From the NCBI GenBank assembly GCA_020723995.1, contig DYHT01000007.1, positions 1-64,000 of the forward strand: a stretch of 64,000 bases of DNA. Reading direction: 5' to 3'. Every line of letters starts with the position of its first letter. The first letter of the stretch is position 1. The notes under the pieces were generated by a model that searched no databases, was not told the origin of the DNA, and was given only the letters and a program-made list of their open reading frames with translations. Both the position numbers and the translations under genes were made by a program. The stretch comes from Chloroflexus sp. (GTDB lineage Bacteria; Chloroflexota; Anaerolineae; Anaerolineales; Villigracilaceae). Shown one piece after another: positions 15,693-19,855 of the stretch.

Positions 15693-16667
15693 TCAAAACA
15701 AAGATGGCTGTGAGGCAGGATGTTTGACATTTCCCGCTTTCTCTTCAAGCCAGGCCTGCAACCTGATTGGTGCTTCTTTGAACGGGTGAGGAAAGGGCAA
15801 CGCGCCTTTTTGCAACAATAACTTGTTCCCCTCCGGCATCTGTTCATGCTCCAGCACAAAAACCGGAACCCAGCCGTTCTTGAGCGTTTCGGTTGCCCCG
15901 GCCCATGTGCCGCCAGCCTCGGCGTCGCTGGCAACCACGATGGCGTAATCGGCGAGAGTGTAGATGAGCCGGTTGCGTCCCATCGCCGCGCCGACCGAGA
16001 ACCCGGCGTTGGAACTGTACGGCGTGACCAGGCACAGGTCGCCGCGCCGCAGCGCTTCTTTCTGACCTCGGACTGCTCTTTCCAGACTATCCGCCAGCAC
16101 GCCAACGGCCGTCCCGCGTGCCTCGAGCGCGGACTCCATACTGATGGTGTCCACGCCTTTCGCCCCGCCCGAGTACAAGACCATGCCAGATATACCGCAC
16201 GCGTTGCCCACAAATGCTGCGCACTCTTTTCCTGCGTCGTCCAAATGACGCGACCCGACGACTGCAATTCCTGGTTGTCCGAGCAGTGCTCTTTCTCCGG
16301 CGTAGAACAACACCGCCGGGGCTGAGTCTTTCAACCGAGTGCGGTATCGCTCTGGGTAATCGGGGTCGGCGCGGGTGAGGGGATAAATGCCGAGAGATGC
16401 GAGGCGTTTAATTTCATGTTGAATGTCGCGTGAAAGCAGAGATGTGATGCGCGCGGTTTCATCGGAGGAAAGGTCCAGCGGAGAATCACCTGTCGAAACG
16501 GTGAGCAGGTCTGAGGGTCGGAGTGAGGCGGCTTGTAGTCTGCGGTAGAGGGGATGCCATTCGCGCAGAGTCAACGGTTTGGCGGAGTCGTCATCCAAAC
16601 CAAGATGGGAGCAGAGGAGGAGGAGAGCGAGGGAGTCGGGGTTCATGTTGCGTGGTGTGTGGCGCAA
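15693..16667 (-). CDS. DprA/Smf-like SLOG-fold protein
   Basis: ASLGIYPLTRADPDYPERYRTRLKDSAPAVLFYAGERALLGQPGIAVVGSRHLDDAG...GMVLYSGGAKGVDTISMESALEARGTAVGVLADSL (SGGAxGvD motif). Same strand as, and immediately downstream of, the RecQ-PRTase gene. Confidence 0.87.
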   Translation of the reverse strand: MRHTPRNMNPDSLALLLLCSHLGLDDDSAKPLTLREWHPLYRRLQAASLRPSDLLTVSTGDSPLDLSSDETARITSLLSRDIQHEIKRLASLGIYPLTRADPDYPERYRTRLKDSAPAVLFYAGERALLGQPGIAVVGSRHLDDAGKECAAFVGNACGISGMVLYSGGAKGVDTISMESALEARGTAVGVLADSLERAVRGQKEALRRGDLCLVTPYSSNAGFSVGAAMGRNRLIYTLADYAIVVASDAEAGGTWAGATETLKNGWVPVFVLEHEQMPEGNKLLLQKGALPFPHPFKEAPIRLQAWLEEKAGNVKHPASQPSLF

Positions 16668-16681
16668 ATTGGCAATTTGCG

Positions 16682-19600
16682 TTACGTGTCGGCGTGAATG
16701 GTGCGAGTGAGGGTGAGAACGTTGACTTGTGCGGCGCGATGATTGAGGAGGAGCCGTGTGATCTCTTCGAGGGTCGCGCCCGAGTCGAAGAGGTCGTCCA
16801 CGAGCAGGACGCGCCTGCCTGTTATATCACCGTTTATGGCGAACGCGCCCGCCACGTTATCGCGCTTTTGCGGGAGGGTGTGCATTTCCTTTTGCGGTTT
16901 TGTCTGGCGAGTCTTTATGATGGAGGTTTGCATGGGTTTGTCGAACACGCTGGATAGTGCTTTGCAAAATTCGTGAACGGGATTGAAGTCGCGCTGCGTG
17001 GAGGATGGAACGGGGATGATGATGTCGAATTGATCCATTTCAGGATGCGCGGCAAGAAGTTTGCGCGTATGTTCGACGAGCGCGGGCAGTACAGACGAGT
17101 CGGATTGATATTTGAGACGATAGGCGAGGTCGCCGATACCGCTGCGATTCCAGTCTGCACCTGTGAAACTGCTATGGAAATCGAGCGCGAAGCCTGTGTG
17201 CCAGTTGCCCGTTAGGGGGCGGGGGTGGGAGGAGGAGAGGTAGGAGATAATGGAGTCAGCGTGGGGCGCGGGGTATGGAGCGTGTTGCGTGGCAGGTGTC
17301 GAAATGTCGGTGGTCAGGTTTGCTTTGGCGAACGTTTTTTTGTCACGACGTCGTAAGATTGCGATTTTTGCCGAATCGCGAGTGTAGTATTGTTCGTTTT
17401 CGTCTTCTGAGATTTTTTCAAGTAAACCAATTGCGCGCGGGTCTCCGATGTTTCCCAATGCTTTGACTGCATATTGACGAACCTGTGGTTTTGTTTCTAT
17501 CGCGAGCAAATCCATCAGAGGTTGAACGGCTTGTGCGTCCCTGATTTTGCCAAGCGCGGAGGCGGCTAATCTCCTTGTGTTTCCGTCTCCACTTTTCAAT
17601 GCAGTTATAAGTTCGGGGATGGCAGATGAAGATTTTGATTCGCCAAGAGCAACGATGTGTTGTATGTGGTTGGCTGGCGAGGTCTTATCTTCAGTTTCTG
17701 CATCAGGGATTTCAACCGCCGTGTAACTTGCGACGACGCAACGGATCATTTCATAGGTGATTTCATCGGAAAGTAAATTTTTGATGGGGAAAAGATATTG
17801 GGTGGAGCCGACTTTTTGAATCGCCTTTTCGATTTTTTCATGAATCTCTTTCGAGACAACTTTATCCACATCGAGTTTGCCTGCTTCGATGAGTTTGGCG
17901 CAGTGGCCGTAGATGGTCATCATGGTGAGGCCGCGCTGACGGGCGATCTTTTCGAGAGTCAGGCCGTTGGCGAGGAGTTGCGCGGTGTACTCCACTGTCC
18001 CGCCCGCCTGCATTTCGGATTTTTTCTTTTCAATCGCGTGTGAAGATATACCTTGCGGCATTTTCAACGGGATGGACGTTTTTTGTTTGATGGCGCTTTC
18101 GCCTTTGGGTGTGAGACTCAGCACAGGGTATTCCCCGCCGATGACTTTGAAATACCCATGCGCAGTCAATTCACTAATCACCTCTTCGATTTTGTTTTGA
18201 TTAAGCGCGGTGAGTTTGGCGTAGTAAACATGCTTGTCATATCCAAACTTCTGTATGTCTTGCGCCTTCGAACCTTTTAAAATTTGCGCCAATTTCCTGC
18301 GTCCGACTTGACGTTTGCCCAGCCTGCGGACAGTATCGAGGATGATGAGCGCGGCGCGTTCTGCGTGCGACATCTGCGCCACATCCCCACCCCATTTGGG
18401 CATATTCTTTTGCGAGAGGCAGTTGTCGCAACAGACGGGCGCGTCGGGGCTGGCGCTATCGCCAAAGTGTTTAAGCACTGCGCGGCGGCGGCAGGCATTG
18501 GTCTCCGCGTAGTTGACCATATGATCAAGTTGGTCGGTGCGGTGACGCGTGTGTTCCTTGCTGCGCACCGCGGCTTGCTGAATGGCTTTGGAATCCCATT
18601 TGCCTCTTCGCAGTAACATCCTTATGCCGTCGTCGCCGAGATGTTCGAGCGCGCCGACGCGTTCCAGTTCGGCCAGTCCCACTTTGATTTTAACGGGGTG
18701 TAAATCGGTGCGGCGCGAGAAGTCGTCGGTCGTCATCCAGATTTGGTTATCCGCGCTGCCGAGGGCGTGGTAGAGGAGTCGCAGCTCCTCAGGCGAGACG
18801 ACACTGCTGGCGATGAAGAACTCCTGCAGGGCGCGGTCCTGCGGGGCGTAAAGCAGGATGACTTTGGCGGGGAGTCCATCGCGTCCCGCGCGACCTGCCT
18901 CCTGATAATAGGCTTCGAGCGAGCCTGGCAGGGTGTAATGGATCACCTGGCGCACGTCGGCGCGGTCAATGCCCATGCCGAAGGCGTTGGTGGCGCAGAT
19001 GACGGTAGTCCTGCTGTTGATGAACGATTCCTGGATCCGCACGCGGTCTTCGGGGGGCAGTCCCGCGTGGTAATGCTCCGCTTTCACCCTGCACACCGCG
19101 CGCACGAACTCGGCTGTTTCTTCCGCGTCGCGGCGCGTGCCTGTGTAGATCAGCGTCGCGCCGTTTGGATGCGGATTGAGCAACTCATTCAAGGCGCGGA
19201 ACTTGGCTTCGACATTGGCTGTGTATTTCACTTCGAGCGTGAGATTGGGACGGTTGAATCCCGTCACGATGCATTTTGTTGATTCAGGCAGCCCCAACAA
19301 ACGGACGATGTCGCTTTGCACTTTGGGAGTCGCGGTGGCGGTCAGTGCGACCGTGAGTGGATTGCTCAGTTGTTTGCGCGCTTCGGCAATGTGAAGATAG
19401 TCGGGGCGGAAGTCGTGTCCCCACTCGGAGATGCAATGAGCTTCGTCAACGGCGAGCAGGCTGAGGGTCCGATTTTGAAGCGATTGGAGGAAGGTCACAC
19501 TTCTCAAGCGTTCAGGCGCGACGTAAACGAGTCTGTATTTCCCCTGAGAGACGAGAGTCAATCTTTCTTTTTGTTCAGATACGGGAATGGCGCTGTTGAT

Positions 19601-19855
19601 GAACGTCGCGGGGATGCCTTTGCGATTGAGCGCGTCCACCTGGTCTTTCATCAACGCGATGAGCGGAGAAATGACGAGCGTGAGGCCATCGAGTTGCAAT
19701 GCGGCCAGTTGAAAGATGAGCGATTTCCCCGCGCCGGTGGGCATGATGGCGAGGGTGTGATGACCGGCGAGCAGGCTCTCAATCGCATCTTGCTGGCCGG
19801 GGCGAAAGGAGTCGAAGCCGAAGGCGGATTGGAGAGCGGTTTCAATGGGTTGCAT
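16682..19855 (-). CDS. RecQ-family helicase fused to HEAT-like repeats and a C-terminal ComF-like phosphoribosyltransferase domain
   Basis: Helicase: IMPTGAGKSLIFQLAAL, LLAVDEAHCISEWGHDFRPDY, QEAGRAGRDG; RQC cysteines CRRRAVLKHFG..CCDNC; HEAT-like IPELITALKSGDGNTRRLAASALGKIRDAQAVQPLMDLL; PRTase IIPVPSSTQRDFNPV...RRVLLVDDLFDSGATLEEITRLLL. Confidence 0.92.
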   Translation of the reverse strand: MQPIETALQSAFGFDSFRPGQQDAIESLLAGHHTLAIMPTGAGKSLIFQLAALQLDGLTLVISPLIALMKDQVDALNRKGIPATFINSAIPVSEQKERLTLVSQGKYRLVYVAPERLRSVTFLQSLQNRTLSLLAVDEAHCISEWGHDFRPDYLHIAEARKQLSNPLTVALTATATPKVQSDIVRLLGLPESTKCIVTGFNRPNLTLEVKYTANVEAKFRALNELLNPHPNGATLIYTGTRRDAEETAEFVRAVCRVKAEHYHAGLPPEDRVRIQESFINSRTTVICATNAFGMGIDRADVRQVIHYTLPGSLEAYYQEAGRAGRDGLPAKVILLYAPQDRALQEFFIASSVVSPEELRLLYHALGSADNQIWMTTDDFSRRTDLHPVKIKVGLAELERVGALEHLGDDGIRMLLRRGKWDSKAIQQAAVRSKEHTRHRTDQLDHMVNYAETNACRRRAVLKHFGDSASPDAPVCCDNCLSQKNMPKWGGDVAQMSHAERAALIILDTVRRLGKRQVGRRKLAQILKGSKAQDIQKFGYDKHVYYAKLTALNQNKIEEVISELTAHGYFKVIGGEYPVLSLTPKGESAIKQKTSIPLKMPQGISSHAIEKKKSEMQAGGTVEYTAQLLANGLTLEKIARQRGLTMMTIYGHCAKLIEAGKLDVDKVVSKEIHEKIEKAIQKVGSTQYLFPIKNLLSDEITYEMIRCVVASYTAVEIPDAETEDKTSPANHIQHIVALGESKSSSAIPELITALKSGDGNTRRLAASALGKIRDAQAVQPLMDLLAIETKPQVRQYAVKALGNIGDPRAIGLLEKISEDENEQYYTRDSAKIAILRRRDKKTFAKANLTTDISTPATQHAPYPAPHADSIISYLSSSHPRPLTGNWHTGFALDFHSSFTGADWNRSGIGDLAYRLKYQSDSSVLPALVEHTRKLLAAHPEMDQFDIIIPVPSSTQRDFNPVHEFCKALSSVFDKPMQTSIIKTRQTKPQKEMHTLPQKRDNVAGAFAINGDITGRRVLLVDDLFDSGATLEEITRLLLNHRAAQVNVLTLTRTIHADT

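Follow-up and report, generated by a model that had tools for sequence, protein, structure and literature searches.

A RecQ-lineage helicase–phosphoribosyltransferase fusion and its DprA-family partner in Chloroflexota, a candidate RqlHI/PsyrTA-like module with a clamp-binding-like tail

Pairing of a helicase–phosphoribosyltransferase (PRTase) fusion with a DprA-like protein is described for RqlHI/PsyrTA, in which a RecQ-like helicase carries a C-terminal PRTase domain (PMC4670107, PMC9122126). The genotoxicity of E. coli RqlH requires the PRTase, RqlI restrains RqlH, and co-precipitation of the two proteins depends on the PRTase part (PMC4670107). DprA homologues have been described as the antitoxins of the shosTA, syrTA and rqlHI systems, and one DprA/PRTase pair confers protection from T7 and lambda (PMC9122126). 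A 2025 review describes ShosT as both phosphoribosyltransferase and pyrophosphatase, perturbing purine metabolism and causing DNA duplications, and ShosA as a DNA-binding protein to which further factors are probably recruited (PMC12593503). For DprA-like antitoxins this raises two questions, by what means infection or DNA damage is sensed and at which cellular site the antitoxin works. Our subject is a gene pair in a 64,000-nucleotide stretch of a Chloroflexus sp. genome (contig DYHT01000007.1, positions 1 to 64,000; hereafter the window), consisting of a RecQ–HTH_40–HEAT–PRTase fusion and a DprA-family partner. We read the pair, with a probability of roughly 0.58, as a two-gene toxin–antitoxin-like module for defence or genome guarding, which would act in the manner of RqlHI/PsyrTA and would have arisen by a separate assembly, built on a complete RecQ helicase. 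Its parts are the following.

16682..19855, minus strand: RecQ-HTH_40-HEAT-PRTase fusion gene, 1057 aa (open reading frame (ORF), Pfam, PADLOC, purifying selection)
19319..19804, minus strand: DEAD helicase domain, residues 18-179, with MPTGAGKS and DEAHCISEWGHDFRPDY (Pfam)
18875..19204, minus strand: Helicase_C domain, residues 218-327, with QEAGRAGRDG (Pfam)
18416..18583, minus strand: RecQ_Zn_bind, residues 425-480 (Pfam)
18053..18358, minus strand: RQC winged-helix domain, residues 500-601 (Pfam)
17732..17998, minus strand: HTH_40, residues 620-708 (Pfam)
17378..17620, minus strand: HEAT repeats (HEAT_2), residues 746-826, a variable slot in relatives (Pfam)
16685..17227, minus strand: type-I PRTase domain of ComF-like fold, residues ~877-1057 (profiles, alignment, structure comparison)
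16772..16807, minus strand: phosphoribosyl pyrophosphate (PRPP) loop LLVDDLFDSGAT, residues 1017-1028 (sequence; kept in homologues)
15693..16667, minus strand: DprA-family (PsyrA/RqlI-like) partner, 324 aa as called, without C-terminal winged helix (Pfam, PADLOC, alignment, structure model)
15696..15710, minus strand: C-terminal QPSLF of the partner, a fit to the consensus for binding the beta sliding clamp; the tail is modelled with low confidence, as disordered (alignment, model)

Judged by phylogeny, the fusion helicase is of the RecQ lineage and distinct from RqlH/PsyrT. In the helicase tree RqlH/PsyrT splits off at 100/100 and the long fusions group with RecQ proper, adjoined by unfused Chloroflexota RecQs with which they share RQC and HTH_40. 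A single clade of long fusions and RqlH was rejected by the approximately unbiased (AU) test (p = 0.00012), and no RQC was found in the RqlH/PsyrT protein scanned with Pfam. In the PRTase tree the PRTase halves of the two systems may be related (93/68, not starred), or the PRTase may have been fused twice; placement of the fusion PRTase within the ShosT clade gave an AU p of 0.139, with two ShosT branches being long. Between HTH_40 and PRTase, roughly half of the fusions have HEAT repeats, and the others HRDC (locus L101), an additional RQC (L092) or a short linker; at least seven changes on the tree are needed to explain where HEAT is present. Repeated assembly of RecQ-type helicase, PRTase and DprA from different parts suggests that selection favours the combination rather than one ancestral gene.

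Pfam confirms both ORFs that an earlier, sequence-only reading of this DNA had called at these coordinates, the 1057-aa RecQ/RQC/HTH/HEAT/PRTase protein and its DprA-like neighbour, and most domain matches in the fusion lie far over the cut-off. That reading's picture of a PRTase effector fused to a helicase, with a DprA-like partner alongside, is likewise borne out by domains and profiles. Ratios of nonsynonymous to synonymous substitution (dN/dS) of 0.08-0.20 (NG86; window against relatives) in the partner and in every fusion domain indicate purifying selection, and hence real genes rather than chance frames. Within the PRTase, the Pfam Pribosyltran match covers residues 963-1050, the TIGR00201 (ComF) profile matches at 1.3e-15, and the best Foldseek match is a ComF-alphaRep chimera, pointing to a ComF/ShosT-like fold. 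The possibility, raised with the original proposal, that this domain lacks PRPP-binding residues is dispelled by the DDLFDSGA core of the loop, which shows no variation among homologues. The PADLOC profile PsyrT scores 492 bits on the fusion.

The 324-aa partner ORF matches DNA_processg_A/SLOG in Pfam (E = 3.7e-32) and the PADLOC profile PsyrA over its full length (308.7 bits, 2-321/398), compared with only 83.8 bits for ShosA. The sequence-only reading had proposed a ShosTA-related module; the PRTase/DprA neighbourhood it recognised is right, and the nearest described systems are RqlHI/PsyrTA. Membership in ShosTA itself was rejected on the profile scores and the architecture, the PRTase tree speaking neither for it nor against it. 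A search for ShosA in the phylum at 1e-90, which had no positive control, gave no match. Because partner homologues begin at the ATG of residue 8 (MNPDSLALL...), the true partner probably comprises 317 aa, starts at 16646 and leaves a gap of about 35 nt to the fusion, in place of the 14 nt first noted. A canonical dprA is present separately in the same genome (G000:C71), so the partner is not the transformation dprA, nor, as had been considered, the only chromosomal one; in the DprA tree canonical DprAs form a clade of their own. The AlphaFold model of the partner (pTM 0.88) is disordered at residues 317-324 (pLDDT 39), which is what a short docking peptide would be expected to show.

The published consensus for binding the beta clamp is QL[S/D]LF, with variants such as QLGLF and QMSLF. 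A Q-x-x-L-[F/L/W] tail ends 41 of 43 partners, a count that includes related sequences and becomes 25/27 when made non-redundant at 80% identity; it is found in 0/22 canonical DprAs of the same organisms and in 37 of 938 background ORFs (3.9%). On the non-redundant set, Fisher p was 2.5e-30 for the comparison with background and 5.6e-12 for that with canonical DprA, for a motif that was noticed in the alignment before it was counted and with a statistic that was not pre-registered; definition of the motif did, however, precede the reading of the second DprA clade and of the RqlI sample. All 19 complete PsyrA-like partners have Q at position -5 and L at position -2, and their endings (QPSLF, QPNLF, QMTLF, QLGLL and the like) come after a linker that varies. 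In the other clade, 22/24 of the ~300-aa partners carry the motif (QGTLF, QMALL, QASLW, QLSLL and similar). As a control for lineage, DinB polymerases of the same genomes bear QLSLW or QLGLW, at the position where Pol IV binds the clamp.

The motif also reaches the described systems. The tail is present in 17 of 35 PsyrA/RqlI proteins, a sample made up of matches to the PsyrA profile across the phylum together with further RqlIs and mostly encoded next to RqlH. QLSLL is the ending of an RqlI from a Nostoc plasmid, and the two E. coli RqlI alleles examined both contain QPELF in the linker preceding the winged helix. The two ShosA-type partners examined lack the tail motif. Given its placement, its convergence and the controls, a chance origin of so short a motif is unlikely. 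A literature search found no link between DprA and the sliding clamp in titles and abstracts, most subscription journals lying outside its coverage, and to that extent the putative clamp-binding tail of helicase–PRTase partners is a new observation.

The pair is closely co-conserved. A PRTase scan of named genomes returned 62 loci, about 30 with a long fusion; many are contigs of metagenome-assembled genomes (MAGs), and the phylum labels Omnitrophota and Syntrophus may reflect binning errors. Long fusions occur mainly in Anaerolineae/Chloroflexota MAGs and also in Armatimonadota, Abditibacteriota and a few others. The neighbourhood survey that the sequence-only reading had recommended bears out its pairing: a DprA-family gene, decayed in the case of L080, lies directly downstream of the fusion in 25/26 evaluable named loci, and downstream in 20/20 loci of an even class-wide sample, one of which (L197) is an unfused PRTase with DprA. 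Neither PRTase nor DprA was found near the two unfused sister RecQ loci examined. The PRTase turned up in 24 of the 347 genomes scanned across the class, and the pair is missing from one (G003) of the three other genomes of the same genus, marking it as an accessory module.

Partners are drawn from two DprA clades, the PsyrA-like proteins, including that of the window, and the ~300-aa proteins beside the canonical DprA clade. In genome G010, of the same family, a DprA 76% identical to the window partner stands beside a genuine PsyrT (702 aa, 926 bits) and nests in the tree inside the clade of fusion partners, which we read as exchange of toxin partners.

We propose a mechanism in which the RecQ part would load at junctions of single- and double-stranded DNA, at forks or on invading DNA. 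The C-terminal PRTase would act as effector by modifying nucleotides or DNA ends with the help of PRPP, and would be genotoxic when unrestrained; the partner would bind or counteract the PRTase and hold it in check. Its QxxL[F/L/W] peptide may tether it to the beta sliding clamp and so place both restraint and sensing at the replisome. Take-over of replication by a phage, a phage clamp or single-stranded DNA-binding protein, or fork collapse might then uncouple the partner and release the effector. A clamp-docking-type tail on the partners suggests that such pairs watch DNA replication. We give about an even chance to the broader proposal that DprA-family partners of helicase–PRTase systems, in the Chloroflexota variant and in RqlHI/PsyrTA, are sliding-clamp-docked replisome monitors, the clamp link having been kept or gained in two DprA clades and toxins of two RecQ-superfamily lineages having converged on, and exchanging, such partners. 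If true, the link would tie defence by PRTase toxin–antitoxin pairs to DNA replication, whose machinery a phage has to commandeer, and would name one factor of the kind ShosA probably recruits. The conserved peptide (QPELF in E. coli RqlI, QPSLF in the window partner) makes the clamp idea testable by a single mutation.

Several observations weigh against a clamp-docked defence module. RqlI residues 1-320 still neutralise RqlH (PMC4670107). QPELF occupies residues 351-355 of the annotated 431-aa E. coli RqlI, which would correspond to about 320-324 in the 400-aa RqlI of PMC4670107 if the length difference is N-terminal; the motif is thus probably not needed for neutralisation, and the tail probably serves localisation or sensing instead. 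Locus L105 has an intact fusion without any adjacent DprA and L080 an intact fusion with a decayed one, so toxicity of the unrestrained fusion would not be universal. For PsyrTA of one E. coli strain, protection was undetectable (PMC12409345). The window pair lies in housekeeping surroundings, between heme genes and glyA-gcvT, and no other known defence gene, hence no defence island, was seen among the flanking genes scanned. No PRTase relative was found in viral contigs, and a phage-borne module was set aside on that ground.

Some of these points suit a housekeeping-like role in DNA repair, in which the RecQ/PRTase helicase and a clamp-docked DprA would process stalled forks or gaps, with neither toxin nor phage defence. 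Every domain is DNA-processing and under strong purifying selection, the window locus sits amid housekeeping genes, fusions without an intact DprA persist (L080, L105), and a clamp-like motif is typical of repair proteins. A core repair gene would not be expected to be patchy even within a genus or to swap partners; genotoxicity is documented for the related RqlH and ShosT (PMC4670107, PMC12593503); and defence systems recur nearby, Wadjet JetC (with JetD in two genomes) adjoining the fusion or an orphan DprA remnant at L064/L088, L074 and L099 in three genomes, and known RqlHI being located within type I restriction-modification and BREX loci. We consider a repair role unlikely, though the strongest of the alternatives.

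That the pair is an ordinary PsyrTA, whose RqlH/PsyrT merely gained HTH_40 and HEAT, would account for the PADLOC scores (PsyrT 492 bits, PsyrA 309 bits), the identical gene order and a possible kinship of the PRTase halves. It is improbable given the separation of RqlH in the helicase tree and the AU result, on which a PsyrT with added domains was rejected; RQC, with HTH_40 or HRDC, is common to the fusions and the unfused Chloroflexota RecQs and RQC is absent from the scanned PsyrT, and a true PsyrT of the same family scores 926 bits. Least probable of all is a natural-transformation module, a RecQ-based substitute for ComFA-ComFC-DprA that would handle incoming single-stranded DNA: the PRTase is indeed ComF-like in profile and fold, and an interaction of ComFC with DprA is known from other species (PMC9005727), yet this genome encodes a canonical dprA besides, ComF genes exist separately in relatives, occurrence is patchy, and at the locus no further gene for competence was seen. 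An RqlHI/PsyrTA-like module assembled independently remains the reading we prefer.

Further observations concern the surroundings and the PRTase family. At L087:7608-8708, L089:3435-4499 and L102:1351-2421 the gene immediately downstream of the DprA partner belongs to a ~360-aa family that matches nothing in Pfam or PADLOC and is decayed in L064; a 154-aa ORF upstream of the window fusion (19868-20332, minus strand) looks like a deletion remnant of this family. On the plus strand, 12153-15350 encodes a 1065-aa fusion of serine hydroxymethyltransferase and aminomethyltransferase (GcvT), and short degenerate repeats (AGAGAGCAGAGAGTAG) run at about 15345-15465, between gcvT and the DprA gene. Stand-alone ~195-aa PRTases related to the fused one occur at L107:6914-8130, L075:1090-2258, L112:6992-8101 and L200:505-1823. 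Their neighbour, of ~180-250 aa with a GGSRKI/AGSIxI motif, is SLOG-like by eye, and the members scanned match neither Pfam nor PADLOC; such pairs, found in Pseudomonas, Rhizobiales and Chloroflexota, are possibly an uncharacterised toxin–antitoxin system. The PRTase-only loci L107-L128 (Pseudomonas, Rhizobium) were rejected as ShosT despite a first resemblance, their ~188-aa neighbour matching nothing in Pfam or PADLOC. At L199:1461-4605 a protein of 702 aa and unknown type is followed directly by one of 341 aa that has a related PRTase domain, and no DprA-family match was seen in the 8.6 kb examined.

Comparison with the known systems places the locus most closely beside RqlHI/PsyrTA. The general combination to which the sequence-only reading drew attention is exactly the published pair (PMC4670107, PMC9122126) and so already known; what it missed are the separate helicase lineage and the clamp-binding-like tail. 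Both systems encode a helicase–PRTase fusion followed by a DprA-family gene; the window partner fits the PsyrA profile full length, the fused PRTase has an intact PRPP loop, and the clamp-like motif recurs in many RqlI/PsyrA proteins, both E. coli alleles included. They differ in that the window helicase is RecQ-lineage with RQC, HTH_40 and HEAT, not RqlH, in fusion length (1057 aa versus about 700), in the partner's want of a C-terminal winged helix, and in the use of another, canonical-like DprA clade by older fusion branches. ShosTA (structures 8zva/8zvb/8zvc) resembles the pair in its PRTase effector and DprA-fold partner, with folds that match in the models, but its ShosT stands alone without a helicase, whereas the window PRTase is part of a large fusion and the partner favours PsyrA over ShosA. 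Canonical RecQs (E. coli; Chloroflexota RQC-HTH_40-HRDC) share the helicase lineage and the domain order up to HTH_40; they lack the PRTase and, at the two sister loci examined, a DprA neighbour. In natural transformation, ComFA-ComFC-DprA likewise brings together helicase, ComF-type PRTase and DprA, in that case as separate proteins with a helicase of another family, and the window's genome keeps its canonical dprA elsewhere; that canonical DprA type belongs to its own clade and, unlike the window partner, carries a C-terminal winged helix.

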